Shown piece after piece: positions 12,499 to 32,113 of a stretch of DNA of 37,711 bases (the stretch's first letter is position 1; each line of letters opens with the position of its first letter). This stretch comes from Oscillospiraceae bacterium (GTDB lineage: Bacteria; Bacillota; Clostridia; Oscillospirales; Acutalibacteraceae): contig SVOA01000015.1 of NCBI GenBank assembly GCA_015066635.1, positions 1-37,711 of the forward strand. The letters run 5' to 3'. The translations under genes were made by a program, and so were the position numbers. The notes under the pieces are model-generated. The model was not told the DNA's origin. It did no database searches and saw only the letters and a list, made by a program, of their open reading frames with translations.

Positions 12499-12513
12499 AG
12501 GAGGAAAGATTAT

Positions 12514-15500
12514 ATGAAAAAATCAACCAAACTGTTAAGCATTATTCTTGCAGTTATTATGATTTTGTCATCTCTCACTGTTGGCGCTTTTGCTGCAAAG
12601 ACGGCTTATCAGACAAAAGATAACCTTGAGTCTCTTGGCGCATACAACAACTACGGTACTGTAACCCGTCTTACAACAGAAGAGAGAACATCAATCGCGT
12701 TTGACGCTCTTGATATGCTGCTTGCAAAGGCAAATATCAACATGGGTACAGTTTTTGATATGCTTGGTTTCAAAATCATCATCAACTTTACATCAGTTGA
12801 TAATATCTGCGTTTCACTCGACAGCTTCTACGGAGTTCTTGAGGACGGCGGCTTCCTGGCAGGTATAGCAATGGCAGTCATGAACTTCGGTATCCTTGAG
12901 AGCGTTGACTTAAGCCCCTGGCAGACAGGCATGACACGTGCCAACCAGGCTCAGCTTACAATTGTTACAAAGCTGCTTCAGACTCTTGCTAAGAACTCAG
13001 GCGTTGTTAACACGGTTCTTACATCGGGTATTGATCTCGGTCAGATAGCTTCCATCGCTCACCTGAACCTCAAGCCCATCAGCGACCTTGTTGTAGACCT
13101 TCCCGGACTTATCAAGAATCTTGTTTATCCGCTCTTCTCAAGACCGGATGAAAAGAGTACGGACCGTAACAAGCTCTATAACAAAACCGTAGGCGTTGAG
13201 ACGGCTATCGATGATTTTGTTAAGGGCCTCTTTACAAAGCCGATGAACTGGACTTCCTACAGAGTTGACGCTTCAGGCAACGACCTCGGCTATACAACAG
13301 CTCTTCCGAAGGATACAGATTCCGACAAATCAACACGTTACTTCGAAATAAGCCAAGATAAGAACACAATCACTCAGTACGACTTCAAGTATAAGGCAGA
13401 CAGCATTCTCAAGGCTGACCCCGAGCAGGGCACATGGGTTGAGACTGTTACCTATACAAAGTCGGCTACAGAGGAGTTCGGTAACCCCGGCGTTTATCTC
13501 TATAACGCTCCCGAGGGCTACGAAGGCGACCAGACTCTTAAGTGGTACACAGCAGGTAATGACGGCATCTGGCTTCCTCAGCTTAAGGAAGCTATGGACA
13601 ACAACGCATTTACCTTCTCACTTAACGGCACTGACTCCGTACTTTCACTTCTCTATAAGTTCGCTCCCTACATCTTCAGAGAGATGGCTCCCGTAGTTCT
13701 TAACGGTTCTGTTAAGAAACTCGTTGCAGAGCTCTTTGACGTTAAGTTCACAAAGCTCGGCAATAAGGGCGAGTTTGTTGCTCCCGAGAGCGATGCCTTC
13801 TTTACAGAGGAACAGGGCGAGTATCTTTGGGAATGGTCAAATTACAAGGTAATTAACGGCGTTCCTTACTATCGTTTCCAGGATGAGTTCTTTGTAGGCG
13901 AAATTCCTGCAAACATCAGCACATACTATTATATGTTCGACTGGAACTACACCATCACAGGCGATTTCCTTGACGAATTCATTCCTGCCGGCTCACTCGG
14001 CACAAGCTCATCAACAAGAATTCTTACAAATCTTAACAGCTTTGTTAAGAAGGCTATTGATACCATTATACTTCCTACATGGACAGTAAACGGTACAACC
14101 TATAACAGAAATACAGTATTCGCATGGTCAACAACAAACGGCAACGGCGACCTTCTCGACAACATCCTTAATGTTGCGAGAAATGTTGTTAACATTGCTC
14201 CTGTTGAGATCTTCGGCGACTACTATTCAGAGGCACAGTTCTATACTGCAATGATGACAGGCACCCTTTCACAGGCTGTCAACGGCGCTATCTGCGAGGG
14301 CGTTAAGCTCCTTATGAAGCAGATTGAGTTCCCGGACAACATTGTTAACCAGAACATGCTCGCTATCGGCGCAGTAGTAGTTCGTGAGCTCTGCTCACAG
14401 CTTATGCCTTCCTACAATTTCGATGCTCTTATTTACTCTGACTACGGCGACGCAGCAGGTCATGACAGAGCAGTCCTTGAAGGCAAAGATAAGGAATACT
14501 GGCTGAATGTCTGCCTTACCATGGGTCTTGACCTCGGTCTCTATTACCTTCGTAACCTTGCTGACCTCGGCGAGGATACAAACTATGACTACTACAAGGT
14601 TATGAAGAACCTCGGCGCTATCCCCAGCAACGATGCTGAGGCTATGACTTACACAGCAAACTTTGATGTTTCCAAGTGGACATACAAGGTTGACTGGATT
14701 GCCGACTGGGCTCTTGCCACAGAGGAATGGTGCTGGAGAATGAGCTACGCCATCAACGTAACAGGCGCAACAACTCTTACTTCAGATCAGGATCCTTGGG
14801 CAAAGATCAACTCGGTACTGCTTGCAATCCTTCCGCTTGATAAGCTTCTCAATACAAGCGGCGCAACATCAAGCACTTTCCTTGAGAAGGTTCTCAGAGA
14901 TAAGTTTGTATATGCTATTGCAGACCTTGACCTTCCCAAACTTGTAAGTCTGTTTGATATCCCGACAGGTACAGACTGCTACTTCACAAGCTCGAATATC
15001 CTTAACCAGGCAGTTAAGCTTATCGTTTATATCCTTGACGGTATCCTTAATAAGACCTACGCCGGCGAGCTTCTTTCAAAGAGCACATTTACTTCACTGT
15101 CTGCATTCCTTAACCATAATAATCTTAAGTCAGCTGTTGTAACACTTGTCGGCAAGCTTAATACATTTGTTTATACAAATAAGCTTATTGATGTTGTAAT
15201 GCCTTTCGTTAACATGTTCCTCGGCTGGAAGACAGATCCTCAGGAATATAAAGATCCCACAATCGGCTTTACAAACAGCGGCGGCGACACCTATCTTCAT
15301 AAGGACGCTACCAACTACATTACCTTTACAAACAACTCCGCAGGTATGCTTCTTCGCCACAGAAGTCCCGACAATCTTAAGTATAAGTATGACTCACCTT
15401 ATACTATCGTAATTGATTCAATTACATTTGATACAACTCAGATGAGCCTTAAGACAGCTCTCTCGAGCTCGAACAATAGGGTTTCTCCTTATGAGACAAA

Positions 15501-17709
15501 GAGCTATGAGCTTAATGTAACAGGTACAGACGCAGTTGCCAAGGCAACAGTTACCTATCACTTCCTTGGTAAGACCGATACAACAACTCAGATGGGCGAC
15601 CAGCAGACAGTTGTTGCATACGGTTACATGACCAATGTTTGGGACCAGGAAAATGAGGAGGAAGGCGACGCTGATATCAAATACTGGAACAGAGATAAGT
15701 ATAAGAAGTATGAGTTCACTCAGGATATCTACGGAGCAGTAACCGAGTATAAGGGTTCTGTTTCATATAAGGGATCAACTTTAGGATGGGGCGATCCGTC
15801 AAGCGTATCCTTCGAATCAATGAAAGCCGATACTAAACCTCAGGGAACAGCAGGAAATTACTTCCAGGAAATTACCAGCAGGGCAGAGTCAGGCTTCCCG
15901 GATAAGCTGTATAAGAAACCCTCAGGCTCACAGGTATCCGCAGGCGGCGGTAAACTCTGGAAAGTAAAGAGCGGCGTTACAGCGGATACTAACTTCCCGT
16001 ACGGCGTTTACGACATGGGCCAGATGGCTGTTAAGTACTACGGCAAGTCCGGCACATGGGTAGTTGACTTCATTTACTACAACGACTATGAAATCGGCAA
16101 TGTAAAGAGCGAATATGTAGGCAAGCAGATTAAGTCATCTGATGTTTCATCTGCAGGTCAGACAGCATTCACTCAGTACGAGACAGCTCTTAAAGCAGTA
16201 GTTAAGTGGGCAGATTATCCCAAGACTACAACTTATGTTACTACTGTTCAGGGCAACATCGAGGCAGCTATTGCCAACCTCGAGGCTAAGTACGATGCTC
16301 TTGAACCTTATCTTACCACAGCAACTGTTGACTATGAGGCACAGCTTCAGGCAAAACTCGATCAGTGCGAAGACAGAGACAGAGATTATGATTTCCAGGA
16401 TTACAAGCTCTTCGAGTACTTCAAGTATGAGAATCAGAGAACTGAAATCCGTAACATGATCAAGGCTTATCAGGAGCCCGTTGCTCCGACTCAGTACATT
16501 GAGAACGAGGACGTTTCCTACGAGAACATCCAGAAAGCTATCAACGGTGCTTCCGCTAACGTTGCAACCGGTATCAATGCAACTCTCGTTAATCCTACAA
16601 CCGAAGCTGTAGATGCTTACAATGAGGCTATGGCTAACTTCAAGGATCCTACTTACTCAAGCCTTCAGGTTGCAGACATCATGCAGAAGCTTCCTTACTA
16701 CTATAGCTTCATGAAGCTCAACCCGAGAGCAACATATTACAAGCAGTTCCTTGCAAAGGAAATCGCTTATGCTAACGCTCAGTATCCGACATCAGACGAA
16801 GCTCTCTACTCACCCGATTCATGGGCAGAGTTCCAGACACGTTTGACAGAGGCTACGAATGTTAACAATAAGACTAATGCAATTCACTCAGAGATATTTG
16901 AAGCTAAGTACAACCTGATGGTTGCTATGAGAGACCTTAACAAGGTTGAACATTCAATGAAGGATGACGGCAACAACTATCTTGCAGAGATTCAGGGCTA
17001 CATTGACAATGCTAATGTAATCCTTGACCATCTTGAGTACTACACCGTAGTTCCCGGCATGACAACTGCTGAGGCACTCGGACAGTTGGTAAGAGCACTC
17101 GGTGTTAACTACACTGATGTTGACGGCAACGCAGCAATCCTTTACAACCATTCAGCTCTTACATTCACAACTTATGACCGTGTTAACACTTCAAAGAATA
17201 AGCTTGCAGTTGACGCTGCTGCTGACAAGCTCAAGGCTGCTATCGACAACTTCCTTTGCGATGTTATTGAGCAGAACGGCGACGGTTATGTTAACACAGT
17301 TGTTCCTCAGATTAAGCTTGTTGCAGGTATCCAGCCCGGCACAATCTTAACAGTAGCTGACCTTCTTAACCACATCCGTGTTAAGACCGGCGTATCGGGC
17401 GTAACTCTCGAAACACTTGTTTCGGCAGCTAATGCATTCGGTACAGGCGCAAAGGTCAACGCAAATGCAACAGGTGTCGGCACACTCGCAACATATCTCG
17501 TAGTTATCTACGGTGATGTTAACGGCGACGGCGCTATTGATGCATTCGATGCTTATGATTCTGATAAGGCTCTTGCAGGCACTGCGACATTCACAGGCGC
17601 TTATGCAACAGCAGCTGACGCAGTTGACGATGACGAGTTCAACGCAACTGACTACAGCACAATCCTTCAGGCATCTGTAGGCAACGCAACAATCGAACAG
17701 GTCAGATAA
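12514..17709 (+). CDS. Giant secreted protein with dockerin-like C-terminus
   Basis: 1731 residues, starting at the ATG behind AGGAGG (12499-12504); the upstream open frame overlaps the leader and is not credible. The signal peptide has KKSTK, a hydrophobic core and a cut near AFA-A (27/28). The bulk (about 30-1200) is Tyr/Asn/Thr-rich and matches no domain I know. Around 1230-1330 it is helical and charged. A FIVAR-like helical module with the YSPDSWAEFQ start lies near 1428-1475. The last 69 residues carry a dockerin-type calcium loop, GDVNGDGAIDAFD (Asp/Asn at 1, 3, 5, 12), and a degenerate second one, DAVDDDEFNATD. Dockerins bind cohesins, and two cohesin-like proteins follow. No catalytic motif or sortase signal was seen, so a structural or adhesive surface role is inferred. 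Confidence 0.85.
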   Translation: MKKSTKLLSIILAVIMILSSLTVGAFAAKTAYQTKDNLESLGAYNNYGTVTRLTTEERTSIAFDALDMLLAKANINMGTVFDMLGFKIIINFTSVDNICVSLDSFYGVLEDGGFLAGIAMAVMNFGILESVDLSPWQTGMTRANQAQLTIVTKLLQTLAKNSGVVNTVLTSGIDLGQIASIAHLNLKPISDLVVDLPGLIKNLVYPLFSRPDEKSTDRNKLYNKTVGVETAIDDFVKGLFTKPMNWTSYRVDASGNDLGYTTALPKDTDSDKSTRYFEISQDKNTITQYDFKYKADSILKADPEQGTWVETVTYTKSATEEFGNPGVYLYNAPEGYEGDQTLKWYTAGNDGIWLPQLKEAMDNNAFTFSLNGTDSVLSLLYKFAPYIFREMAPVVLNGSVKKLVAELFDVKFTKLGNKGEFVAPESDAFFTEEQGEYLWEWSNYKVINGVPYYRFQDEFFVGEIPANISTYYYMFDWNYTITGDFLDEFIPAGSLGTSSSTRILTNLNSFVKKAIDTIILPTWTVNGTTYNRNTVFAWSTTNGNGDLLDNILNVARNVVNIAPVEIFGDYYSEAQFYTAMMTGTLSQAVNGAICEGVKLLMKQIEFPDNIVNQNMLAIGAVVVRELCSQLMPSYNFDALIYSDYGDAAGHDRAVLEGKDKEYWLNVCLTMGLDLGLYYLRNLADLGEDTNYDYYKVMKNLGAIPSNDAEAMTYTANFDVSKWTYKVDWIADWALATEEWCWRMSYAINVTGATTLTSDQDPWAKINSVLLAILPLDKLLNTSGATSSTFLEKVLRDKFVYAIADLDLPKLVSLFDIPTGTDCYFTSSNILNQAVKLIVYILDGILNKTYAGELLSKSTFTSLSAFLNHNNLKSAVVTLVGKLNTFVYTNKLIDVVMPFVNMFLGWKTDPQEYKDPTIGFTNSGGDTYLHKDATNYITFTNNSAGMLLRHRSPDNLKYKYDSPYTIVIDSITFDTTQMSLKTALSSSNNRVSPYETKSYELNVTGTDAVAKATVTYHFLGKTDTTTQMGDQQTVVAYGYMTNVWDQENEEEGDADIKYWNRDKYKKYEFTQDIYGAVTEYKGSVSYKGSTLGWGDPSSVSFESMKADTKPQGTAGNYFQEITSRAESGFPDKLYKKPSGSQVSAGGGKLWKVKSGVTADTNFPYGVYDMGQMAVKYYGKSGTWVVDFIYYNDYEIGNVKSEYVGKQIKSSDVSSAGQTAFTQYETALKAVVKWADYPKTTTYVTTVQGNIEAAIANLEAKYDALEPYLTTATVDYEAQLQAKLDQCEDRDRDYDFQDYKLFEYFKYENQRTEIRNMIKAYQEPVAPTQYIENEDVSYENIQKAINGASANVATGINATLVNPTTEAVDAYNEAMANFKDPTYSSLQVADIMQKLPYYYSFMKLNPRATYYKQFLAKEIAYANAQYPTSDEALYSPDSWAEFQTRLTEATNVNNKTNAIHSEIFEAKYNLMVAMRDLNKVEHSMKDDGNNYLAEIQGYIDNANVILDHLEYYTVVPGMTTAEALGQLVRALGVNYTDVDGNAAILYNHSALTFTTYDRVNTSKNKLAVDAAADKLKAAIDNFLCDVIEQNGDGYVNTVVPQIKLVAGIQPGTILTVADLLNHIRVKTGVSGVTLETLVSAANAFGTGAKVNANATGVGTLATYLVVIYGDVNGDGAIDAFDAYDSDKALAGTATFTGAYATAADAVDDDEFNATDYSTILQASVGNATIEQVR

Positions 17710-18003: not shown

Positions 18004-19089
18004 ATGGCAAAAACTAAGAAGGCGTTAAGTCTTGTTTTGGCTGTTGTTATGGTGCTTAGCTTGTTTGCAATCAACGCATTTGCTGCAGGCGAGGAAGCTA
18101 CATTTACAGTAACTTCATCCGCTGCTCAGGTTGCAACAAACGATATTATTACTATAACCGTTAAGGCCAGCTCAAACTCAACATATTATGCCGGTCCTAT
18201 GTCGATTCCGGTAATTTATGATTCTTCGGCATTCGAGTATGTTGCCAATTCGGTTTCTGTTGCGAACATTTTCGGCGCTACAGCTACTGACAGCGTTGTT
18301 AATACTACAACAGCAGGAAAGATCATTGTTGCTCTTTCTCCGCTTACGGCTAACAGCCCGACAGCTCCGAATCTTACAACAGAGTTGACCATCTTCACAT
18401 TCCAGTTGAAGGCTATCGGTTCATCAGGCTCATATACTATTGATATAGACAATGACCAGAAGACTGACAGCCACCCGACCGGTAAATTCTATTGCGGTAA
18501 CTTTGACGGCCCCAATGCTGCTACTGCTAATCTTACGAGAATCGGCCAGACTCTTAACAGAGTAGGCGCTCCCGTATCTTTCGGCCCTGTAGGCACTTGT
18601 GAGCTTATTCTTACAGCTACCGGCGAAACAAAAGGTACAGTAATCGACAGAACTACAACCTGCAACGATTATGACGGATATGTTTACGGTATCGATACAT
18701 TAATCGATGGCGAAGACATTGCTGATTTCGTTACAACAGTTGTCGGTTCAGTTGAAATTGAAGAAAACGCTAATGGCGTATATTCAACAGGCGCTCTCAT
18801 TAAGCTTAAGGATGCAGGCGGCAATGTTATTGAGACTTACGTCTTTGTTTACTTCGGCGATGTTACAATGGACGGCGCGGTTGACTTGGATGACGGCGCA
18901 GCTATAGCCGCTTCGGAAGCATATATTGAAATGCTTGAAGACGGCACAGCTCCGTTCCTTGCCGGTGATGTAACTATGGATATGGCTACAGACTTGGACG
19001 ATACCAATGCGATTGAGGCTCAGGAATCTTATATTTCTGAACTTCCTACACAGTATGAAATTGCTGCATTTTATGCAAGCAACATATAA
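18004..19089 (+). CDS. Secreted protein: cohesin-like module plus dockerin-like pair
   Basis: 361 residues, ATG behind AAGGAGG. The signal peptide is cut near AFA-A (27/28). Residues about 32-175 look like a cohesin-type beta sandwich: a spaced FTVTSS...NDIITITVKAS strand pair, IPVIYDSSAFEYV (the family's YDPxVLE position), GKIIVAL and FTFQLKA. The C-terminus has two clear dockerin-type loops, DVTMDGAVDLDD (286-297) and DVTMDMATDLDD (322-333), each followed by a helix (AIAASEAYI, AIEAQESYI). One chain therefore appears to hold both partners of a cohesin-dockerin pair, which would allow head-to-tail chains or bridging to the giant protein. No enzyme or anchor is visible. Family assignment is by pattern only. 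Confidence 0.75.
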   Translation: MAKTKKALSLVLAVVMVLSLFAINAFAAGEEATFTVTSSAAQVATNDIITITVKASSNSTYYAGPMSIPVIYDSSAFEYVANSVSVANIFGATATDSVVNTTTAGKIIVALSPLTANSPTAPNLTTELTIFTFQLKAIGSSGSYTIDIDNDQKTDSHPTGKFYCGNFDGPNAATANLTRIGQTLNRVGAPVSFGPVGTCELILTATGETKGTVIDRTTTCNDYDGYVYGIDTLIDGEDIADFVTTVVGSVEIEENANGVYSTGALIKLKDAGGNVIETYVFVYFGDVTMDGAVDLDDGAAIAASEAYIEMLEDGTAPFLAGDVTMDMATDLDDTNAIEAQESYISELPTQYEIAAFYASNI

Positions 19090-19123: not shown

Positions 19124-20329
19124 ATGCACAAGACAAGCAAAAAGATTTTGAGCCTTGTAATAGCTGTTGTCCTTATGCTTGGTGTTGTTTCTATCGGAGC
19201 TTATGCATTTGACGCTTCAACGCAGAAGTTAGGTTTCATTATCACTCCCGATAAAGACCTCACAAAGCTTAGCGAAGGCGATGTTGTTAAATTTACGGTT
19301 AAGTTTAATGTTGCTGATTTCACACAGACATTTGCTACTTATAAACTTCCGTTTATGTTTGACTCAAATGTGTATGATACCACCGCAGGCGGTAACTATA
19401 CGCTTTATAATGATTTCGCAAATTATTATAAGTCAACATCGACAACTACGATCGTTACAACAGCAACTGCTGTAAACAATATTCTTAATGCAAGCTCTCT
19501 TTCAGCAACGGAGAAGGCAAAGTACAACGCATTTATTAACCTGCTTGGTGCTCCTGATACTGATAGTGGTAACACAGCTAATGCTGGTTATACCATGACA
19601 CATGACAGCTCTGCTTCATCAACAACCTTATCAGTTGATGAGGTATCCTTCAACCTGACAGTTAAAGCGGGCGCTGACCTTACAACAGGTAATACCAACG
19701 TTTTACTTCCCGACAGCTGGTCAAAGACTGGTCTTATGTACTTTAAACTGGCGAACGGCACATCAACATCTTTCACAAAAACAGCTGACATTGATATGGA
19801 GTATGCTAATGCTATGGCTAACAACCCGGCTGCAACAGGTCCGGTAGTTGCTTATGAAAAGGCACAGCTCAAGATGACTCTTATCAACGGCAACACTGAT
19901 GTTGACGACGAGTTCCAGTTCAGAGTAACTTCAATCATTACCGACGCTGACTGGGATGCATATTTTGCAAACACGGCAGCAGGCGGTTCAACAGATGCTA
20001 TTACCGATCTCGGTATCGTTGCAACCAAGGGTACTTGGAGTGAAACAGATGCTAAGGCAGTAGTTAACGGCACAGCAAACGCAGCTTATGAAGTCGCTAC
20101 AACTGACTATGTTCAGAAGACAAGCGATACGGCTGATGCACACTTCGGTGCAATTCTTATGGTTAAGCATTCTACAACTTCTTCAGATGTTACCTATATG
20201 GGCTTCGTTAAGTACGTTGATGATTCAGGCGACGCTCAGGTAATCTTCTATGATGCTGAAAAGACGGCACCCCTTGCTTCAAGGTACGACACTTATAAGG
20301 CAAACTACATCTCACAGTTCGGTGCATAA
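19124..20329 (+). CDS. Secreted cohesin-like protein without dockerin
   Basis: 401 residues, ATG behind AGGAGGAAA, 34 bases after the previous gene and so probably in the same transcript. The signal peptide KKILSLVIAVVLMLG is cut near AYA-F. The N-terminal region (about 35-230) begins LGFIITPDKDLTKLSEGDVV and has KLPFMFDSNVYD, similar in layout to the cohesin-like part of its neighbour but with long Ser/Thr/Asn insertions. The C-terminal part (about 245-400) is a second beta-rich region of unknown family. No dockerin loops, transmembrane anchor or sortase motif. It may be a scaffold or receptor for the dockerin-bearing neighbours. The short precursor peptide gene follows after 76 bases with no terminator between. 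Confidence 0.65.
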   Translation: MHKTSKKILSLVIAVVLMLGVVSIGAYAFDASTQKLGFIITPDKDLTKLSEGDVVKFTVKFNVADFTQTFATYKLPFMFDSNVYDTTAGGNYTLYNDFANYYKSTSTTTIVTTATAVNNILNASSLSATEKAKYNAFINLLGAPDTDSGNTANAGYTMTHDSSASSTTLSVDEVSFNLTVKAGADLTTGNTNVLLPDSWSKTGLMYFKLANGTSTSFTKTADIDMEYANAMANNPAATGPVVAYEKAQLKMTLINGNTDVDDEFQFRVTSIITDADWDAYFANTAAGGSTDAITDLGIVATKGTWSETDAKAVVNGTANAAYEVATTDYVQKTSDTADAHFGAILMVKHSTTSSDVTYMGFVKYVDDSGDAQVIFYDAEKTAPLASRYDTYKANYISQFGA

Positions 20330-20405
20330 TTAACCGATGTATCAGATTCCAAGCTGAGAAGTTTGGCAAAAGTAATTTGATTTAATTCGAGAGGAGATAA
20401 ATTTG

Positions 20406-20528
20406 ATGAAACAAATTTACAGTGCGCCTGACTTTGAAGTTTCAGTATTTGAAGTTGCAGATGTTATCACAGTCTCAGTTAGTTCCGGACCCGTAGACGG
20501 CGGCGACGGCGGCTGGATCGATGTATAA
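20406..20528 (+). CDS. Small RiPP-precursor-like peptide (40 aa)
   Basis: A short gene starting at an ATG 9 bases after GAGGAG and ending TAATAA. The peptide has an N-terminal leader-like part (MKQIYSAPDFEVSVFEVADV) rich in acidic and aromatic residues, then Ile-Thr-Val-Ser, and a core-like C-terminus SSGPVDGGDGGWIDV with Gly, Asp, Ser and one Trp. There is no signal peptide and no Cys. Next to it are a PqqD-type recognition protein, an HprK-like kinase, a protease and an exporter, the usual partners of ribosomally made modified peptides. An APDFEVSVFEVADVI-type leader before a variable tail is a layout I associate with gut Clostridia, but I cannot cite a named family. It is followed at once by a strong terminator. 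Confidence 0.75.
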   Translation: MKQIYSAPDFEVSVFEVADVITVSVSSGPVDGGDGGWIDV

Positions 20529-20571
20529 TAAACGTTTAATCTGAATCGTTTAGGCGCTTAAATTTAAATTG

Positions 20572-20606
20572 AAAATACAGGGTAATTCGTTACCCTGTAT
20601 TTTTTT
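20572..20606 (+). terminator. UUCG-loop terminator after the precursor gene
   Basis: A 14-bp perfect stem (20572-20585 with 20590-20603, core ATACAGGGTAA) closed by TTCG and a run of seven T. It separates the peptide gene from its presumed processing genes and would give an excess of precursor mRNA. Confidence 0.92.
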
Positions 20607-20629
20607 ATCTTTTGAAGTCTTTTTCGGAC

Positions 20630-20658
20630 TATACAAAACCGTAAAAAAGTGATAAAAT
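20630..20658 (+). promoter_or_regulatory. Possible promoter for the kinase-PqqD-protease-exporter operon
   Basis: TATACA (20630-20635), 17 bases and TAAAAT (20653-20658) preceded by TGA (extended -10). The -35 matches only 4 of 6. Confidence 0.45.
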
Positions 20659-20688
20659 AAATTAAATACGTTAAAAGGAAGTGAAAAA

Positions 20689-21429
20689 ATGGAGCTTTTT
20701 GATATTGCGGGACTTAAAGTTGCTATGAATTGCCGTGATAAAGAGGACGGACTGCTTCGGCAGAGAAGCCGCGCATATCTTGCCGAGAATCAGAGCGAGG
20801 CTCCCGACTTTTCACTCGATATGCCCGATGACGCACTTAAAACATACGCCGAGAAATACAACTCTCTGAATCTCGACGAGTGCCACTATGTTTTTATGGG
20901 CGAGGCCTTCTACACAAAGCTTTTGAAATTTGACGGACTTATGCTTCACGCTTCATGTATTGAAAAGGACGGTATGGCGTATCTTTTCTCTGCAAAAAGC
21001 GGAGTCGGAAAGTCAACACACACCGATCTGTGGATAAAAACCTTTGATAACGTCAGGATGATAAATGACGATAAGCCCGCAATAAGATATATGAACGGCA
21101 GATTTTATGCCTGCGGAACTCCCTTCAGCGGGAAACACGACAAAAGCATAAACTGTTCCGTGCCGATACGGGCAATAATATTTATTGAAAGAGCAAAGGA
21201 AAACAGAATTGAACGCCTTACTCCCGACAAGGCAATACCGCTTTTTCTGTCGCAGACGGTAAGGCCCGTAAACGCCGAGTATATGTCGCTGGTTTTAGAA
21301 CTGCTTGACAGGATACTCAGGGAGATTCCGATATATAAGCTTTACTGCAATATTTCACGGGAGGCGGCGCTGACCGCATATAACGGAATTAACGATAATC
21401 TGAAAGAGGTTGACGGTAATGAAAATTAA
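20689..21429 (+). CDS. HPr-kinase-like P-loop kinase of a peptide-modification cluster
   Basis: 246 residues, ATG behind AAGGAAGTG. It resembles the C-terminal kinase domain of HprK/PEP-carboxykinase-like proteins: a conserved HAS (87-89), a P-loop SGVGKST (104-110), NDDKP (126-130) and GTPFSGKH (143-150). It lacks the N-terminal half and the full HprK signature of catabolite-control HprK, so it is not the housekeeping enzyme. Homologues of this type occur in lasso peptide clusters of the paeninodin kind, where they phosphorylate a Ser of the precursor. Here the substrate would be the 40-residue peptide upstream (Ser6, Ser13, Ser24, Ser26 or Ser27). That link is inferred from position. Confidence 0.78.
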   Translation: MELFDIAGLKVAMNCRDKEDGLLRQRSRAYLAENQSEAPDFSLDMPDDALKTYAEKYNSLNLDECHYVFMGEAFYTKLLKFDGLMLHASCIEKDGMAYLFSAKSGVGKSTHTDLWIKTFDNVRMINDDKPAIRYMNGRFYACGTPFSGKHDKSINCSVPIRAIIFIERAKENRIERLTPDKAIPLFLSQTVRPVNAEYMSLVLELLDRILREIPIYKLYCNISREAALTAYNGINDNLKEVDGNEN

Positions 21430-21685
21430 AGAAGGTTATATTTTAAGAGAAGTTGCGGGAAACAACATAGTTGTACCCGTAGGCACGGAAAGAATAAGCT
21501 TTAACGGACTTATGACGCTCAATGAGGTCGGCTCGTTTATATGGAGAATTCTTGAAAACGGCGCTGACAGAGATGAAATAGTTGCGAAGGTTACGGAAAG
21601 CTATGCCGTTGACGGCGAAACCGCGGGCAGAGATATAGATGTTTATATCGCAAAGCTCAGAGAAAAGAATTTGATAGAGGACTGA
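21419..21685 (+). CDS. PqqD family protein (RiPP recognition element)
   Basis: 88 residues, starting at the ATG that overlaps the kinase gene by 11 bases, with AAAGAGGT upstream; an earlier in-frame TTG at 21410 is less likely. The PqqD fold shows in KIKEGYILREVAGNNIVVPVG, the central FNGLMTLNEVGSFIWRILE helix, ADRDEIVAKVTESYAVD and the C-terminal helix DIDVYIAKLREKNLIE. PqqD-like proteins bind the leader of a precursor peptide and present it to a modifying enzyme. In this cluster the only apparent enzyme partners are the kinase and the protease. The overlap with the kinase suggests a stoichiometric pair. Confidence 0.88.
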   Translation: MKIKEGYILREVAGNNIVVPVGTERISFNGLMTLNEVGSFIWRILENGADRDEIVAKVTESYAVDGETAGRDIDVYIAKLREKNLIED

Positions 21686-21688
21686 GAC

Positions 21689-22135
21689 TTGGAAACTAAA
21701 CTTATCAAGCTTGACGATTTGATTCCCGTAATCAGGGAAACGCTGGCTGAAGGCGGCAGCTTTGAAATCAATATCAACGGTACGAGTATGCTGCCTCTTT
21801 TAAAGGCGGGGCGCGATACGGTAACGCTCAGTCCCGTTACGGGTAATCTTAAAAAATATGATATTCCTCTTTTTCAGAGGGCTGACGGAGCTTATGTGCT
21901 TCACAGAATTATTAAAGCAGGAGACGGCATATATACCGTCTGCGGCGACAACCAATGGAAAAAGGAAACGGGGATAACACAAGGTCAGATTATTGCCGCG
22001 GTAAGCGAAATAAAGCGCGGGGGCAGGACGGTAAGCGTTGACTCCTTCGGCTATAAGCTTTACTGCAGGGTATGGCATCTGCTATTTCCCGTAAGAAAAT
22101 ACATTGTAAAAGCAAAAGGAAAACTTGCAAAATGA
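21689..22135 (+). CDS. S24/S26 family signal-peptidase-like protease
   Basis: 148 residues, TTG start 8 bases after AGAGG and three bases after the pqqD-like stop. Motifs of the ER/SipW-type signal peptidases are present: the nucleophile S33 in NGTSMLPLL, a His in place of Lys in YVLHRI (H72), and GDNQW (86-90, matching the GDN box with Asp). There is no N-terminal membrane helix; a short hydrophobic segment occurs near the C-terminus (about 125-137) within a basic tail. It probably acts at the membrane face as the leader peptidase for the exported peptide, since the ABC transporter has no C39 peptidase domain. The role is inferred from context. Confidence 0.8.
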   Translation: METKLIKLDDLIPVIRETLAEGGSFEININGTSMLPLLKAGRDTVTLSPVTGNLKKYDIPLFQRADGAYVLHRIIKAGDGIYTVCGDNQWKKETGITQGQIIAAVSEIKRGGRTVSVDSFGYKLYCRVWHLLFPVRKYIVKAKGKLAK

Positions 22136-23814
22136 AAAAGAATTCGGCATTAAACTGGATAGTTAAGAATTCCCGTCGGGAATTTCCGGGCATGGCGCTG
22201 CTTGCGGTCTGTGATGCCCTTTATTCGGTGTGCTCGGTTTCAATGGCTGTCTTTTCAAAAATGATTATAGACTCGGCTGTCGGCAAGGACAGAGACGGAC
22301 TGATTCGCAACGCTCTGTTTTTTCTGGGCGTTACGGTCGCTCTGATAGCGCTAAAGCTTTTGAGCAAGGCAATAGAGGTCAGGGTTTCGGGAAAACTTGA
22401 AATGAAGTACAAAACACAGCTTTTTTCCGAAATACTCAAAAAAGATTATCTTAAAATCAGCGAGTATCACAGCGGCGAGCTTATGACGAGACTCACAAGT
22501 GATGTGTCGGTTATCAGTTCGGCTGTTACGACCATAGTGCCGAATATTGTTTCGATTATAACAAGGCTTATCTGCGCATTTGCGGTAATGTTTTATCTTG
22601 ATAAACTTTTTGCCGTGCTTATTTTAGTCGCGGGACTTGTTCTGTTCGTTTTTACAAGAATTTTCAGAGGCTCAATGAAAAAGCTTCACAAGGAGGTTCA
22701 GCAGACAGACGGCAAAGTGCGCTCCTTTATGCAGGAAGCTATTGAAAGTCTGCTCGTTATAAAAATATTCGGCGTAAACGGTAAAATGAAGGAAAAGTCC
22801 GAAGCGCTGCAGACGGATAACTACAATGCCAAAATAAGAAGAAACCGCTGGTCTATCTTTGCAAACCTCGGCTTTTCGGCGGCTTTTTCATTCGGTTATC
22901 TCTTTGCTCTTGTGTGGAGTGCGGCAAAGTTGTATGCAGGCAGTTTTACCTTCGGTACGCTGACAGCAATTATTCAGCTTATCAACCAGGTGCAGATGCC
23001 GTTTACCTCATTGTCCGGAATAGTGCCTCAGTATTATTCGGCTATTGCCTCGGCGGAGAGAATTATAGAAATAGAATCGCTCAGCTCCAGCAAGGCCGTA
23101 AACGACAGCAGCGTCAACACAAAGGAACTTTACAACGAACTCGAAACCATCAGTTTCAGAAACGTCAGCTTCAGCTATGACAGGGATGTCGTTATAGATA
23201 ACGCGAGTTTCGATATAGCCAAAAACGATTTTATTATGATTTCGGGTATTTCGGGTATAGGCAAAAGTACGCTCTTTAAGCTGCTTTTGGGCGTTATTCC
23301 CGTTGACAGCGGAGAAATTCATATCGTTTCGGGCGGCAGGGAATACGGAATTGATAAATATATAAGACCTATGTTCGCCTATGTTCCGCAGGGCAATATG
23401 CTTTTCAGCGGTACGATAAGGGAAAATCTGAAATTTGTAAACGGCAACGCAACCGACGAGGAAATAATGAAGGCGGCGGCAGTATGCTGCGCCGACAGTT
23501 TTATCAGCGAACTGCCCGACGGACTTGATACGGTACTGCTTGAAAACGGGCAGGGACTTTCCGAGGGACAGATTCAGCGTCTTGCCATAGCACGGGCCGT
23601 GCTCACGGGCGCTCCGGTGCTTCTGCTCGATGAGGCAACCTCGGCGCTTGACGAGGCGACGGAAAAGCAGCTTCTTTCAAACATCAGAGACCTGAAGGAA
23701 AAGACCTGCATTATCATCTCCCATAAGGCTGCTGCATATGAAATCTGCAATAAGGAACTAAAAATTTCGGATAAAAAAATAGTTGTCGGAAATTTATCAA
23801 AAATAAAAAATTGA
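22132..23814 (+). CDS. ABC exporter, fused permease and ATPase
   Basis: 560 residues, starting at an ATG that overlaps the protease stop (ATGA). An N-terminal type I exporter membrane domain (about 1-315, including QTDGKVRSFMQEAIESLLVI) is followed by an ATPase domain: Walker A GISGIGKSTL (about 370), Q-loop YVPQGNMLFSGTIREN, signature LSEGQIQRLAIARA, Walker B VLLLDEATSALDEA and H-loop IISHKAA. There is no N-terminal C39 peptidase domain. As a homodimer it would export the modified peptide. A downstream extra open frame upstream of the chosen start lies inside the protease gene and is ignored. Confidence 0.9.
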   Translation: MKKNSALNWIVKNSRREFPGMALLAVCDALYSVCSVSMAVFSKMIIDSAVGKDRDGLIRNALFFLGVTVALIALKLLSKAIEVRVSGKLEMKYKTQLFSEILKKDYLKISEYHSGELMTRLTSDVSVISSAVTTIVPNIVSIITRLICAFAVMFYLDKLFAVLILVAGLVLFVFTRIFRGSMKKLHKEVQQTDGKVRSFMQEAIESLLVIKIFGVNGKMKEKSEALQTDNYNAKIRRNRWSIFANLGFSAAFSFGYLFALVWSAAKLYAGSFTFGTLTAIIQLINQVQMPFTSLSGIVPQYYSAIASAERIIEIESLSSSKAVNDSSVNTKELYNELETISFRNVSFSYDRDVVIDNASFDIAKNDFIMISGISGIGKSTLFKLLLGVIPVDSGEIHIVSGGREYGIDKYIRPMFAYVPQGNMLFSGTIRENLKFVNGNATDEEIMKAAAVCCADSFISELPDGLDTVLLENGQGLSEGQIQRLAIARAVLTGAPVLLLDEATSALDEATEKQLLSNIRDLKEKTCIIISHKAAAYEICNKELKISDKKIVVGNLSKIKN

Positions 23815-23896: not shown

Positions 23897-25396
23897 ATGG
23901 ACTATAACACAGAGCAAAAAAAAGAATATGAAGAGGGCTTAAGCTTTGATACCGTGCTCCTGTATGCAAAAAAGGTCCTTGAGAAGTGGCATATAGTTGT
24001 GCTCACGGGTCTTGTATGCGCAATTATAGGTCTGGCTATAGCCTTTTTGACATATACCGATAAGTATTCTTCACAGATTATGCTTATTGCAAGTAATAAA
24101 TCGTCCGCTCTTGCAGCAGCGGTTCAGTCACAGTCCGACTTTAACGCGTCGGCTTCACTTGCTTCGAGCATAAAGTATGTATTTACTACCACGGAGCTTT
24201 CGACAAAGGTTGCAGACTCCTGCGGCTATAAGCTTTCCGCTGACCAGGTTAAGAGCTATGTGTCGGTAAAATCGGTTGAGGAAACCCCGATTATTTATAT
24301 CACGGTTACAACCACCGACCCCAATGTTTCGTACGCCATAGCAAATGCTTATGTCGATAATTATTCCGAAGCGGCTGAGGCGGCTTTCCCGAATACGGCT
24401 CTCACGGTTATTGACCCTCCGCTTCTCCCGTCAAGACCCAATACCGACAGGAGCAAGATTATTTATCCTATGCTCGGCTTACTTGTCGGCTTGTTCGCAG
24501 CTTGCGTATTCATAGTATTCTCGGTTATCTATAAGGATACTCTCAAGATTTCCGACGATATTACCAACAAGCTCGGCATGAAGGTTCTCGGCGTTATCGG
24601 CAAGGTTACGAGAAAGACTAAGAAGGGCGAGCCCAAGCAGGGCATCATTATTACGGACAAACGAACGGGCTTCGGCTTTATCGAGTCATATAAGATTATC
24701 AGAACCAAAATTGAACACGCTACCGAGAGACAGAATTACAAGGCCTTTGTCGTTACCAGTACAATGGAGAACGAGGGAAAGACCACCAGCGCTACAAATA
24801 TCGCTCTTTCACTCGCTCAGAACGGCAAGTCGGTACTTCTTATAGACGCCGACCTCAGAAAACCGTCGGTTGCAAAAACGCTCGGTTTCTCGGCTGCGGA
24901 TGACGAGGGTATCTGCGGAATAGTTTCCGGTAAGAAAACCCTTAAAGAATCTATCAAATATTCAGAGAAGTATCAGCTCTTTGTCCTTGTTTCGGGCAAA
25001 GCCGTTGAGAATTCCACAGAGGTTCTTTCCTCGCAGAAAATGAGCGAGATTATCGAAAGCGCCAAAAAGGAATTCGATTATGTTATTGTTGATACCGCTC
25101 CCTGCGGCATCATAGCCGACGCTTCTATTCTTGCAACTTACTGCGACACTATTATCCTTGTTATCAAGCAGGACTATGCGTCTGCAAGAAGAATCAAGAG
25201 AGCCGTTGAGAACTTTGAAAACTCGGGCAGCGAGGTGCTCGGCTGTATCTTTAACGATTCCGAGGGCTCCATTACCAAGGGCGGCGCTTACGGTAAGCGT
25301 TACGGCTACGGTTACGGCTACGGCTACGGCAGAGGATACGGTAAGGGTTACGGCTACGGTTACGGCTACGGTAAAAAAAGCAAGAAAAATAAATAG
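23897..25396 (+). CDS. Polysaccharide co-polymerase / bacterial tyrosine autokinase fusion
   Basis: 499 residues, ATG behind GAAGAGGAG. A Wzz-type chain-length domain lies between two membrane helices (about 33-53 and 187-212) and is fused to a cytoplasmic BY-kinase. The kinase motifs are Walker A ENEGKTTS (291-298), Walker A' LLIDADLRKPS (314-324) and Walker B YVIVDTAP (395-402). In most Firmicutes the two parts are separate proteins (CapA/CapB), so the fusion is the Wzc-like arrangement. The tail (465-492) is YG-repeat with 11 tyrosines, the autophosphorylation cluster. The usual role is control of capsule or exopolysaccharide length. No glycosyltransferase or polymerase is nearby, so its target here is open; surface-protein or pilus regulation is possible. 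Confidence 0.9.
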   Translation: MDYNTEQKKEYEEGLSFDTVLLYAKKVLEKWHIVVLTGLVCAIIGLAIAFLTYTDKYSSQIMLIASNKSSALAAAVQSQSDFNASASLASSIKYVFTTTELSTKVADSCGYKLSADQVKSYVSVKSVEETPIIYITVTTTDPNVSYAIANAYVDNYSEAAEAAFPNTALTVIDPPLLPSRPNTDRSKIIYPMLGLLVGLFAACVFIVFSVIYKDTLKISDDITNKLGMKVLGVIGKVTRKTKKGEPKQGIIITDKRTGFGFIESYKIIRTKIEHATERQNYKAFVVTSTMENEGKTTSATNIALSLAQNGKSVLLIDADLRKPSVAKTLGFSAADDEGICGIVSGKKTLKESIKYSEKYQLFVLVSGKAVENSTEVLSSQKMSEIIESAKKEFDYVIVDTAPCGIIADASILATYCDTIILVIKQDYASARRIKRAVENFENSGSEVLGCIFNDSEGSITKGGAYGKRYGYGYGYGYGRGYGKGYGYGYGYGKKSKKNK

Positions 25397-26195: not shown

Positions 26196-27980
26196 ATGTA
26201 CGGTTCAAGAAAAAAGGCAAAATCAGTATTGATTGCTGTACTGGCTGTTGCTTTAATTATCAGCCTCACCTTGCCTATGGTAGCTATGGGCAGAAACAGT
26301 GACGTTGAGGAAGCGGATTACCAGTATTACGTAATCAGAACAGGAGACACGCTCACAAGGATTTCCAAGAATTACGGCGTTTCGGTCAGCGACATCGTTG
26401 CTGCAAACAAAATTTCAAACGCTGACAGAATCTATGCGGGCAACGTCATCAAGATTCCTATGACTTCCGGTTACGGAAATACTTCGTCATGGGTTTCTAC
26501 AAGAATTTCGCTTAACCTCTCAAACGCTAATGTCAAGGACGCTCTTTCAGCAATAGCTCTTAATGCAGGTTATACGATTATCTTTGTCAGCGATTCAGCT
26601 GCCACCATCTCGGCAAAGCTCGAGCAGATGTCTGCTCTCAAGGCGGTTGACTATGTTACAAGACTTGCAGGTCTTTCATATCTCAAAGACGGCAATACAA
26701 TTCTTGTAGGCAGCGCTACAGAGCTTAACACGAAATTCGTTGACAGGGTTGTTATGTCGAAGTTCAAGCTCAACTATATCACTGCCGATATTCTTCAGGC
26801 TCAGGCTAATGCTCTCGGGCTTGAGAATGTTCAGTATGTAGTTACCGAACAGGACGCTAATACCGTTTATATCAGCGCATATCCCAAGGAGCTTGCAAAG
26901 ATTAAGGAACTCGTTAAGCTTCTTGACGTTCCGTCGAACATCAAGGCGGGCGGCGAGCTTATACCCGAGAACTTCAAGTATCTTGAACTCACTTACATAG
27001 ATGCAACCGAATTCTCAGGCCTTCTTTCAAACCTCGGACTTAATCCGGGTATCGTTCTTAACTCAAGGCCTTATACCCTTTATACATTTGCGTCAGGAGC
27101 CGAGCTTGAAGACGTAAAGATTATAAAGAAGATAGTTGACAGACCTCTCAGCGGTATGGACGCGGCAGCTGCGGCAGCAGAAGGCGGCAGCGATTCTTCC
27201 GACGAGGTAATCAACAACACCACAAACAATACCACAAATAATACTACTAATAATACAACAACCAATACGACCAACACTACCGACAATACGGGCAACACCG
27301 GCAATACGGGCAGCACATCGACATCTCAGGAGAACAAGCAGGTACTCCGTGAGATAGAGCTTACCTATATTGACAGAGAGACTGCCAAGGATATTGTTGA
27401 CAGCTTCCCCTATTCGGTAAGCGTTTACGGTCCCGACAAGATGACCAAGAAGATCTGGCTCATGGGCGACGAGTCCAACGTCAACAGTGCAGAGGCAAAG
27501 ATCAAGGAACTTGATACGGAAGAGTATGCAGCGAACAACAAGCTTGAAAATACCTTCTTTGTATATGACCTTCAGAACTGCACTGCAGCTGAGATGCTTG
27601 ACAGACTTCAGAATGTTCCGCTCAGAGACGTAAGCTTCAAGACAAACTCCTATGAGGCAGTTTCAAAGACGCTTATTGTTTACTGCGACTATGCAAAGCA
27701 GGATCAGGTTAAGAGCTTGCTTGCCGCTATGGACAGCGCAACGACATCACAGGAAGAGTACAGAGCTATCGAGGTTACTTTGGACAACGCTACGGGTATG
27801 GCAAGAATCGACGCTCTTCGCAGCGTACACCCCGAAATTCCGGATGCAAGCTACTTCCAGTATGTAACTTCTGTTGATAAGTCCGGCTCCATTACTTCGA
27901 GTACAACCTACGTTCAGGCAACGCCCGAAATGGCGGACTACATCAAGAACCTTCTTAACGAATTGGATACAGCCGCTTAA
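26196..27980 (+). CDS. LysM protein with secretin N-domains but no secretin channel
   Basis: 594 residues, ATG behind TTAGGGGGA. A signal or anchor helix (about 8-31) is followed by a LysM peptidoglycan-binding motif (43-89, YYVIRTGDTLTRISKNYGVS). Next comes an STN/N0-like domain (104-173: SLNLSNANVKDALSAIALNA), then N1-like ring-building repeats at about 186-247, 260-317, 384-441, 452-512 and 520-592; the phrases YLELTYIDATE and EIELTYIDRET show the repetition. An Asn/Thr-rich linker occupies 338-378. The beta-barrel secretin domain of PilQ/GspD is absent: the protein ends after the last N-type repeat. In a monoderm cell it may form a wall-bound periplasmic-side ring or conduit for the pilus. 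Confidence 0.75.
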   Translation: MYGSRKKAKSVLIAVLAVALIISLTLPMVAMGRNSDVEEADYQYYVIRTGDTLTRISKNYGVSVSDIVAANKISNADRIYAGNVIKIPMTSGYGNTSSWVSTRISLNLSNANVKDALSAIALNAGYTIIFVSDSAATISAKLEQMSALKAVDYVTRLAGLSYLKDGNTILVGSATELNTKFVDRVVMSKFKLNYITADILQAQANALGLENVQYVVTEQDANTVYISAYPKELAKIKELVKLLDVPSNIKAGGELIPENFKYLELTYIDATEFSGLLSNLGLNPGIVLNSRPYTLYTFASGAELEDVKIIKKIVDRPLSGMDAAAAAAEGGSDSSDEVINNTTNNTTNNTTNNTTTNTTNTTDNTGNTGNTGSTSTSQENKQVLREIELTYIDRETAKDIVDSFPYSVSVYGPDKMTKKIWLMGDESNVNSAEAKIKELDTEEYAANNKLENTFFVYDLQNCTAAEMLDRLQNVPLRDVSFKTNSYEAVSKTLIVYCDYAKQDQVKSLLAAMDSATTSQEEYRAIEVTLDNATGMARIDALRSVHPEIPDASYFQYVTSVDKSGSITSSTTYVQATPEMADYIKNLLNELDTAA

Positions 27981-27993
27981 GTTTAATCAATAT

Positions 27994-28015
27994 GGGTGCA
28001 GGAATACCTGCACCC
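27994..28015 (+). other. Intercistronic hairpin before pilT
   Basis: GGGTGCAGG-AATA-CCTGCACCC, a perfect 9-bp stem, is followed by TAAAGTGGCTTTTTA. The T-run is displaced, so it is at best a partial terminator; it could mark an mRNA processing site or lower expression of downstream genes. Confidence 0.55.
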
Positions 28016-28039
28016 TAAAGTGGCTTTTTAAATTAGATT

Positions 28040-28061
28040 TTTCCTTTCGTGAGAAAGGAAA
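28040..28061 (+). other. Second intercistronic hairpin next to the pilT ribosome site
   Basis: TTTCCTTTC-GTGA-GAAAGGAAA, a perfect 9-bp stem with a GTGA (GNRA) loop, ends three bases before the pilT Shine-Dalgarno AGGAG (28064-28068). It could stabilise the processed mRNA end or tune translation. Confidence 0.5.
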
Positions 28062-28080
28062 CCAGGAGTTGTAATTACAA

Positions 28081-29181
28081 GTGATATTTTCCGGCAAACC
28101 AAGTAACTATCCGTTCACGCTGAACGATTTACTTAAAAAAACATATGAAATGGGCGGTTCCGACCTTCACATTGTTGCAGGTATTGAGCCGTGCATACGT
28201 ATAAACGGTGACCTTAAACGTCAGAATGATATGCCGAAGGCTTCGCCTGAGGATGTCGAAAAGATGCTTTTTGATGCTCTTACCGAACAGCAGAGAGAAA
28301 AACTTGAAGAAGACTGGGAACTCGACCTTGCACTTTCAGTCCCCGACTGTGCAAGATTCAGAGGCAATATTATTCTTCAGAGAGGCACTCTCGCGGCTGT
28401 TTTCAGAGCAATTCCCTTTGAGGTTCCGGATCTTGACAAGCTCGGTCTTCCCGCAGACGTAAAACGTCTTTGCAACCTCCCGAGAGGACTTGTCCTCGTT
28501 ACGGGACCCACGGGTTCGGGTAAATCGACCACGCTTGCAGCCATGATTAAATTCATAAATCAGCGCTATGAAACAAATATAGTTACTGTTGAGGACCCGA
28601 TAGAATTTCTTCACACTCACGATAAATCAACGGTTCGTCAGAGAGAGGTCGGCACCGATACGCACACCTTTGCAAATGCGTTAAGGACGGCGCTCCGTCA
28701 TGACCCCGATACTATTATGATAGGCGAAATGAGAGACCCCGAGAGTATTTCTATAGCGGTTACTGCCGCAGAAACCGGACACCTGGTTTTCTCAACGCTT
28801 CATACTCAGACTGCCCCGATGACAATTTCCAGAATCATCGACTCTTTCCCCGAAGGACAGAAGGGCCAGATAAGACAGCAGTTATCGAACTCGCTCAAGG
28901 CAGTTATTTCACAGCAGCTTATTCCCACAATAAACGGCAAGGGCAGATGCGTCGCTGTTGAGTATATGATAGACACTCCTTCCGTTAAGAACCTTATCAG
29001 AGAAGAAAAAGAGCATCAGCTTTACGCTGCTATGCAGACAGGTCAGATGCAGGGAATGCAGACTATGGACCAGGCTCTGATAAAGCTCTATAAGGAGCAG
29101 AAAATTTCCAAGGAATCTGTTATTGAATTCTGTGTAGACGAAAAAGAAGTAAGGCGTCTCCTTATGACTTCCGGCTACTAA
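28081..29181 (+). CDS. pilT: PilT-type pilus retraction ATPase
   Basis: 366 residues, GTG start 12 bases after AGGAG; no better start precedes the conserved LNDLLKKTYEMGGSDLHI. A secretion-superfamily ATPase hexamer in the cytoplasm that depolymerises pili. Motifs: Walker A GPTGSGKST (142-150), Asp box TVEDPIEF, Walker B TIMIGEMRDPE, His box STLHTQTA. The PilT-specific C-terminal motif VKNLIREEK (normally AIRNLIREGK) and the GMQTMDQAL ending separate it from PilB. It lies in the assembly operon, separated from the preceding gene by two hairpins, so its level may be set independently. Confidence 0.93.
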   Translation: MIFSGKPSNYPFTLNDLLKKTYEMGGSDLHIVAGIEPCIRINGDLKRQNDMPKASPEDVEKMLFDALTEQQREKLEEDWELDLALSVPDCARFRGNIILQRGTLAAVFRAIPFEVPDLDKLGLPADVKRLCNLPRGLVLVTGPTGSGKSTTLAAMIKFINQRYETNIVTVEDPIEFLHTHDKSTVRQREVGTDTHTFANALRTALRHDPDTIMIGEMRDPESISIAVTAAETGHLVFSTLHTQTAPMTISRIIDSFPEGQKGQIRQQLSNSLKAVISQQLIPTINGKGRCVAVEYMIDTPSVKNLIREEKEHQLYAAMQTGQMQGMQTMDQALIKLYKEQKISKESVIEFCVDEKEVRRLLMTSGY

Positions 29182-29210
29182 TCTCATAAATTAAGAAAGG
29201 AGCAGTTGCT

Positions 29211-30416: not shown

Positions 30417-30430
30417 TAGGAGAGAGAATT

Positions 30431-31414: not shown

Positions 31415-32107
31415 GTGTTTAGAGTTAGTTTGTTGCCTGACAGTTACAGGCGCCATCTGCAGAGCAGACAAAAAATTGACATCGTATCAAAAATCGCACT
31501 TGTTATACTCGTATGCTTGTTCATAGTTTACGGCGGAGTTGCAATTAAGAGCGGTATCCTCAAGACAAAGCTTAAAAAGATTAACACAAAGAATGCGGCT
31601 ATTGAGGCGAGATTCCCCGAGCTTGAGGAGTACAGAAACATTTATAATGAGCTTCTTGCTTCAAAGAAGGTTGTTGACAGCATTACTCCCCATGATACAG
31701 AGGCAGTACAGTTCCTGACAATTATTGCGAACGAGACACCCGATTATGTACAGATTAACGAGATTGACCTCACGGATTGGTTTGTCAGCGGTACGCTCAC
31801 TCTTGACTGCACTGTTCAGAATTATGAGGATATGAAGTCATATCAGTCTCTCTTTGAAACAGATGAAATGAAAGAGACAATTAAAATGGTTGAACGCACA
31901 AGCGTTGAAAAGACCATAACTCAGGACGGCTCGAGCGTCAGATTTACGCTTGTGCTCAGTCTGTCAAACGCTATCGAAGTACCTACATCGGCAGCACAGT
32001 ATGTTGTAGTTACCGACGATAAGGGCAACGAGGTTACAAACGCTGAGGGCGAGGTTCAGACCACAGAGGTTACGACCGAAGAAACTACAGCGGCAGCGGA
32101 GGAGTGA
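31415..32107 (+). CDS. pilN: PilN inner-membrane alignment protein
   Basis: 230 residues, GTG start directly after the pilM stop with GGAGG 8 bases upstream. The cytoplasmic N-terminus carries the PilM-binding motif as VSLLPDSYR (family INLLPxxxR). A single membrane helix (about 27-45), then a coiled coil (LKTKLKKINTKNAAIEARF) and a beta-rich extracytoplasmic ferredoxin-like domain with QINEIDLTDWFVSGTLTL. The tail is Thr/Glu-rich (TTEVTTEETTAAAEE), unusual for PilN and perhaps a wall-side linker. Confidence 0.9.
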   Translation: MFRVSLLPDSYRRHLQSRQKIDIVSKIALVILVCLFIVYGGVAIKSGILKTKLKKINTKNAAIEARFPELEEYRNIYNELLASKKVVDSITPHDTEAVQFLTIIANETPDYVQINEIDLTDWFVSGTLTLDCTVQNYEDMKSYQSLFETDEMKETIKMVERTSVEKTITQDGSSVRFTLVLSLSNAIEVPTSAAQYVVVTDDKGNEVTNAEGEVQTTEVTTEETTAAAEE

Positions 32108-32113
32108 TAAACT

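Follow-up and report, generated by a model that had tools for sequence, protein, structure and literature searches.

The Linear Polyphosphorylated Peptide (LPP) system, lppA-K-B-S-D-N of Paenibacillus alginolyticus, was described in May 2026 (PMC13381572). In LPP, the phosphates on core Ser3 depend on the kinase, and LppS, together with LppB, cleaves after T-1, a leader cleavage of the type I signal peptidase (SpI) type. In the LppB–leader structures, N33 and D70 fix the leader Pro and Tyr. The LPP precursors possess "highly variable C termini", the family is patchy in Bacilli, which is considered typical of conflict genes, and the biological role of the peptides is stated as unknown. WxxP is given in the same source as typical of paeninodin leaders, and rumen lasso clusters carry HPr kinase, PqqD, and nucleotidyltransferase genes (PMC7533575). 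The window considered here, the whole stretch of 37,711 nt from contig SVOA01000015.1 (assembly GCA_015066635.1, forward strand) of an Oscillospiraceae bacterium, contains a kinase–PqqD–protease–exporter cassette preceded by the gene of a 40-residue precursor peptide. These genes probably belong to a dispersed clostridial LPP-like phosphopeptide pathway, in which one cassette would serve, in trans, peptides linked to secreted proteins (probability about 0.78).

Compared with LPP, the locus shows the same HprK-like kinase, discrete recognition element (RRE) of the ribosomally synthesized and post-translationally modified peptide (RiPP) type, SpI-type Ser/His/Asp protease, and MsbA-like pump in identical gene order. 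The YxxP leader, the boundary Thr with a Ser soon after, the neighbouring polysaccharide gene, and the lack of an adjoining lasso cyclase are shared as well. An earlier note on this DNA, termed the sequence-only reading below, had assigned the product to a class that it could not name; the gene set and order described for LPP supply one. Differences also exist. The nucleoside triphosphate (NTP) transferase is encoded in trans, not in the cassette, and the precursor Thr is located two residues further from the Tyr. A genome has several precursors, most of them encoded in trans, behind genes for secreted proteins. The cores are conserved between paralogs (in two genomes), in contrast to the variable LPP C termini, and the system is near-universal in the genus, whereas LPP is patchy.

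Enzymes of the cassette

The features of the region are listed below.

19124..20329, + strand: secreted protein (401 aa) whose gene immediately precedes that of the precursor, with a C-terminal domain at about 19859-20326
20406..20528, + strand: precursor peptide, 40 aa (homologs, codon pattern, core conservation)
20571..20604, + strand: intrinsic terminator, 15-pair stem with T-run (-18.3 kcal/mol, z -5.9)
20630..20658, + strand: weak promoter-like site, 9/12 consensus matches, TG ahead of the second hexamer
20689..21429, + strand: HprK-like kinase (LppK-like), conserved P-loop and NDDKP motifs, AlphaFold fold match
21419..21685, + strand: PqqD-type RRE (LppB-like), PF05402 at E 2.4e-16; alternative start at 21410 possible
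21689..22135, + strand: SpI/S26-type protease (S26/S24-like; LppS-like), Ser33/His72/Asp87 triad, AlphaFold fold match
22132..23814, + strand: MsbA-like ATP-binding cassette (ABC) exporter (LppD-like) without peptidase domain; PF00664 and PF00005, top NCBIfam matches MsbA-related
23897..25396, + strand: polysaccharide tyrosine autokinase of the CpsD/Wzc type, TIGR01007 at 174.6 bits, above the cut-off; adjoins the cassette downstream

In the cassette, the kinase and PqqD genes overlap by 11 bases, the PqqD and protease genes are separated by 3 bases, and the protease and ABC genes overlap by 4 bases. All five genes, the precursor included, are situated where the sequence-only reading had placed them, and the tight coupling of the four enzyme genes was confirmed. 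The CpsD/Wzc-type autokinase is context and lies outside the pathway. A Pfam scan of 28 of the 30 larger open reading frames (ORFs) in the window yielded no lasso B2, radical SAM, YcaO, or LanM family, upholding the absence of these four as noted earlier, and no macrolactam cyclase or NTP transferase among the same 28. The kinase, described at first as the only modifying enzyme, holds that position locally; elsewhere in the genome, at G000:C8:11825-12517, an LppN-type NTP transferase (PF14907) is encoded on a contig that also carries a second precursor.

Profile support from Pfam and NCBIfam is firm for the PqqD-type protein and the ABC exporter, and weak for the kinase and the protease. The folds of the latter two are settled by their AlphaFold models: the kinase model (pLDDT, the model's confidence score, 94.8) matches HPr kinase/phosphatase (HprK/P) and PEP carboxykinase (PEPCK) folds, and the protease model (pLDDT 92.0) resembles type I signal peptidases as well as LexA-type domains. 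Sequence searches of the PDB with the kinase profile and with the protease gave nothing useful. The protease residues Ser33, His72, and Asp87 are kept in 65/65 aligned sequences. The PqqD-type protein matches the structures of TbiB1, PbaB1, and LppB. By alignment, the counterparts of LppB N33 and D70 are Asn and Asp, kept in 81/94 and 80/94 RREs, respectively, at positions where PbaB1 carries Gly and Gln; this favours a Y-type pocket over the W-type pocket of paeninodin. The RiPP-type system proposed in the sequence-only reading is supported by this kinase, RRE, serine protease, and exporter, and by a precursor with a conserved YxxP leader. A plasmid search gave three distant matches.

Precursor peptides and adjoining secreted proteins

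The 40-aa ORF, preceded by a ribosome-binding site (GAGGAG, 20391-20396), is a real gene, since it has a second copy, matches in related genomes, and a codon pattern biased to the third position. Within the same genome, a different contig carries the second copy, with 81% identity across residues 4-40. At the loose limit of E<=1, a single-peptide query matched 36/59 related genomes (the own genome included), 31/36 within the genus; the lack of conservation that the sequence-only reading had named as counting against itself was not observed. Among seven genus precursors, the codon differences number 139/74/430 at positions 1/2/3. The leader comprises residues 1-22 (20406-20471) and the predicted core residues 23-40 (20472-20525). 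The cleavage site and the phosphosite are placed by analogy with LPP, with S24 as the best candidate phospho-Ser.

The precursor ORF starts 74 bases after the secreted-protein gene 19124-20329 and is separated from the kinase by the hairpin and T-run at 20571-20604. Because this strong terminator lies between them, the precursor is probably not part of the cassette transcript. The promoter-like site at 20630-20658 constitutes weak evidence, as 14 sites of this kind occur in the region where 9.3 would be expected by chance. A single cassette including the peptide had been assumed earlier; instead, the peptide trails the secreted-protein gene.

Across relatives, 75 distinct precursors (84 with duplicates) were recruited by profile at E<=0.05, with Y or F followed by xxP present in all of them by construction of the count. 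The leader is YxxP in 71/75, with F replacing Y in the remaining 4, and D or E occupies Y+14 in 73/75. T at Y+17 is found in 58/75 and S at Y+19 in 53/75, both occurring together in 51/75. The tails contain Trp in 62/75 precursors and Cys in 0/75, with a mean charge of -4.0. Eight loci (L118, L121, L122, L123, L124, L125, L127, and L130) carry tandem precursors behind one secreted-protein gene, the first tail being DAVIVW-like and the second GGDDGWLDI-like, possibly forming two peptides that act together.

In the own genome, the 18-residue cores of the two precursors are identical, their 11 codon differences being synonymous throughout; from the Tyr to the boundary, the leaders carry 6 amino-acid changes and 8 that are synonymous (p 0.020 against the core). 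Similar differences were observed between the paralogs of genome G030, with 10 synonymous and 0 amino-acid changes in the core and 6 and 7 in the leader (p 0.0075). Pooled, the cores hold 21 synonymous and 0 amino-acid changes and the leaders 14 and 13 (p 1.5e-4). In these two genomes, the precursor core is under purifying selection, and the constraint shifts directly after the conserved Thr, the position of the LPP-predicted cut. The sequence-only reading had expected a variable tail; between the paralogs of these two genomes, no part of the peptide is better conserved than the C-terminal tail.

In the genus, 51 precursor places were found at about E<=0.001. Five of them lie within 5 kb of a kinase (genomes G000, G023, G027, and G034), 44/51 are situated elsewhere than near a kinase, and 2/51 are in a genome without a detected kinase. 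An extra, divergent candidate precursor, outside the 51, stands by the kinase of G002 (L083) behind a non-secreted gene. The picture of a cassette plus its peptide is correct as to the genes present and incomplete as to their arrangement, as most genus precursors are far from the cassette and behind secreted-protein genes. Genome mining restricted to the neighbourhood of the enzymes would overlook most of the genus precursors.

The genes preceding the precursors were scored as secreted by a hydropathy rule of our own, the signal peptide of the window protein being judged by eye as well. After exclusion of 13/75 precursors whose upstream gene was absent or cut by the sequence end, 62 were evaluable, and a same-strand secreted-scoring gene lies upstream of 49/62, compared with 21.4% of 1441 genes of >=150 aa in the same loci. 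The spacing is mostly 1-80 bases, and spacings of ~180-200 mostly have a first peptide in between. In 20 further order-level loci, a secreted gene is upstream in 12/14 evaluable cases (binomial p 5.5e-7); this test takes the longest of the ORFs that end no more than 450 bases away, with a bias toward long genes. Cut upstream ORFs (L244, L246, L248, L252, and L255) and L256, with too little sequence, were excluded, and the two failures are L251, with no upstream ORF, and L257, from a genome without the kinase. Precursors are usually paired with secreted proteins, and these are of several kinds: among seven upstream secreted proteins scanned with Pfam, two contain InlB-type repeats, one contains BspA-type leucine-rich repeats, and the rest gave no match. 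The window protein 19124-20329 likewise has no Pfam match. Its C-terminal domain, as a genus query, hit 23 places, 21 of which are followed by a peptide match; in the other two, one gene ends in a terminator and one lies 265 bases from the contig end, a stretch in which no peptide of this type was seen. A single C-terminal domain common to all upstream proteins was not supported, the genus domain giving an hhalign probability of 2.3% against eight distant C-termini. At least two C-terminal sequence types occur in the secreted proteins upstream of precursors in L100, L103, L215, L216, and other distant loci. Searches of an open-licence library (subscription papers and preprints being outside its scope) turned up a single paper on this kind of system, PMC13381572, and no report of such pairing; the main text of PMC13381572 contains no Clostridi-, Ruminococc-, surface protein, adhesin, secreted, or "in trans".

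Distribution across genomes

Among 59 related genomes, 36 of them in the genus (the own genome included), the kinase is present in 42/59, the PqqD-type protein in 42/59, and the protease in 41/59. Within the genus, the kinase occurs in 34/36, the protease in 33/36, and the PF14907 NTP transferase in 34/36. Outside the genus, the protease is found in 8/8 kinase-positive and 0/15 kinase-negative genomes, and the NTP transferase in 7/8 kinase-positive genomes. Protease and kinase are separated in 15 genomes of the genus, and in 8/15 of these (G004, G008, G015, G017, G018, G021, G028, and G035) the protease is within ~410 bases of the NTP gene, an adjacency that ties the NTP transferase to the system. 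In the case of G011, the protease is 1.7 kb from the NTP gene on the opposite strand; in the other 6/15, the two are apart or the NTP match is lacking. Directly upstream of the own NTP transferase, L258:7781-8743 encodes a membrane-anchored protein that, by eye, we take to be endonuclease/exonuclease/phosphatase-like. A relative of this gene is found ahead of the NTP gene in a further 7 of the 18 loci compared.

At the order level, 147 genomes with >=90% completeness include 35 with the kinase, 31 with the peptide, and 29 with both (Fisher p 1.6e-22). The kinase is found in 29/31 peptide-positive versus 6/116 peptide-negative genomes, and the peptide in 29/35 kinase-positive versus 2/112 kinase-negative genomes. 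Without the eight genomes used previously, the table becomes 22, 5, 2, 110 (p 9.5e-19); both p-values are too small because the genomes are related. The genomes with kinase and peptide together span eleven families.

Such kinases are common, as a profile scan confirmed at least 592 relatives. The named loci represent the best 80 of these at least 592 kinases, from Clostridia and a few others, with neighbours counted on the same strand within 6 kb. In these best 80, PqqD accompanies 56 kinases, the protease 41, the exporter 28, the NTP transferase 18, and a recognised precursor 15. All four enzymes are present in 8 of the 80, with the precursor too in 5 of those: L169 (Herbivorax sp. ANBcel31), L197 (Acetivibrio alkalicellulosi), L211, L215, and L216. 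These five loci hold all six parts, and the gene order in L215 is precursor, kinase, PqqD, protease, exporter, and NTP transferase.

Proposed pathway and competing explanations

The likely task of the enzyme set is to phosphorylate a short peptide, trim it, and export it. By homology, the PqqD-type RRE would bind the YxxP leader, and the HprK-like kinase would phosphorylate a Ser just past the leader, with S24 as the favoured residue. The RRE would guide the SpI-like protease to cut after T22, and the acidic core with its Trp would leave the cell through the MsbA-like pump. Another group may be attached by the LppN-type NTP transferase from its separate locus. Several precursor genes would be served in trans by a single cassette. 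Since the precursors usually stand directly behind secreted-protein genes, the cell surface is the most likely site of action of the mature peptide, together with the paired secreted protein or surface polysaccharide; the core conservation (two genomes) and the near-universal presence in the genus also point to a surface role. A more specific proposal, in which the phosphopeptide is a dedicated co-encoded partner, each peptide helping to assemble, anchor, or decorate its secreted protein, is offered tentatively and at less than even odds. If true, it would be the first biological role for LPP-type peptides. The clostridial version provides handles on that role in the secreted-protein link, the near-universal presence in the genus, and the held cores.

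Several results weigh against this LPP-like pathway. The secretion rule is failed by 13/62 upstream genes, a count that retains two L121 cases in which the true domain gene is masked by a longer antisense ORF. The shared core was seen neither in the G019 pair nor in the G019-G012 pair, identical cores occurring in two genomes. The peptide was not found in 6/35 kinase-positive order-level genomes, and the NTP transferase is also present in 3/15 kinase-negative genomes outside the genus. No PqqD gene lies on the same strand within 6 kb in 24 of the best 80 kinase loci; not every related kinase, therefore, belongs to the pathway. The system is LPP-like rather than an established member of LPP: the motif Px9Fx[T/A] occurs in 0/75 precursors, the NTP transferase is located outside the cassette, and the RRE profile scores TbiB1 at 44.6 bits, PbaB1 at 35.3, and LppB at 35.1, which places LppB no nearer than the lasso RREs.

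A terminator between peptide and kinase, the 44/51 genus peptide places beyond 5 kb from a kinase, and the related kinases without a nearby PqqD would also be expected if cassette and peptides were separate, the cassette modifying another target and the peptides being small companions of secreted proteins. This separation is improbable: kinase and peptide co-occur at the genome level, the peptide has an RRE-type YxxP leader with a T/S boundary, the YxxP-pocket residues are kept in the RRE, and several loci hold peptide, kinase, PqqD, and protease adjoining. Somewhat unlikely is a mature peptide acting as a free bacteriocin or signal peptide with an incidental secreted-protein neighbour. Such a role would suit the short acidic core, the tandem second peptides, and the patchy, conflict-gene-like LPP of Bacilli (PMC13381572). 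However, the kinase is far from patchy in the genus, secreted genes stand ahead of most precursors, and the cores within two genomes are conserved, not diversified.

A dispersed phosphorylated lasso system of the paeninodin kind, with cyclase and leader protease acting from elsewhere in the genome, shares with the locus the HprK-like kinase, the PqqD-type RRE, which resembles lasso B1 proteins, and a genomic NTP transferase gene. Kinase, PqqD, and NTP transferase genes are common in the rumen lasso clusters covered by PMC7533575, and two near full-length Asn_synthase frames (642 and 615 aa) lie on other contigs of the genome. However, AsnB-sized frames are widespread, being present in 11/14 control genomes. 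The own genome has no match to the B2-type protease (PF13471) at E<=0.001, neither cyclase nor B2 protease is found by the cassette, an SpI-type protease accompanies the kinase instead, and the leader is YxxP, with WxxP in 0/75 precursors. A lasso peptide was rejected as the principal explanation on the missing B2 match, the missing linked cyclase, and the YxxP leader, and its dispersed form is very improbable.

In the case of SynChlorMet (ScmA-F), weak relationships link the kinase to ScmC (TIGR04249; 46.6 bits, cut-off 125) and the PqqD-type protein to ScmD; the cassette, in contrast, has no radical SAM gene. Clusters of radical SAM, PqqD, and HprK-like kinase genes with "MKKTYEKP"-like short ORFs were observed in loci of relatives (L108, L109, L110, L112, and L114), possibly representing a separate RiPP type with distant kinase paralogs. 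A radical SAM RiPP was rejected for the present system, a phmmer search (E<=1e-8) with the radical SAM protein of L112 as query having found none in the best 80 of the at least 592 loci. Radical SAM proteins occur in any genome, and the own genome gave 17 matches. Homologous loci do not consistently carry a cyclase or radical SAM gene just outside the cassette region, an arrangement that the sequence-only reading had considered as evidence against its proposal.

In addition, further surface-related genes surround the cassette in the window. Upstream, 12364-17709 encodes a secreted-type protein of 1781 aa carrying a dockerin (PF00404) at its C terminus, and 18004-19089 a secreted-type protein of 361 aa whose cohesin match is weak and falls below the cut-off, together suggesting a cellulosome-like surface set adjoining the cassette. 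Downstream, a type IV pilus locus (26196-37702) is situated in this Gram-positive-type genome, containing a secretin-N/LysM protein, two T2SSE ATPases, T2SSF, PilM, PilO, and prepilin-like proteins.

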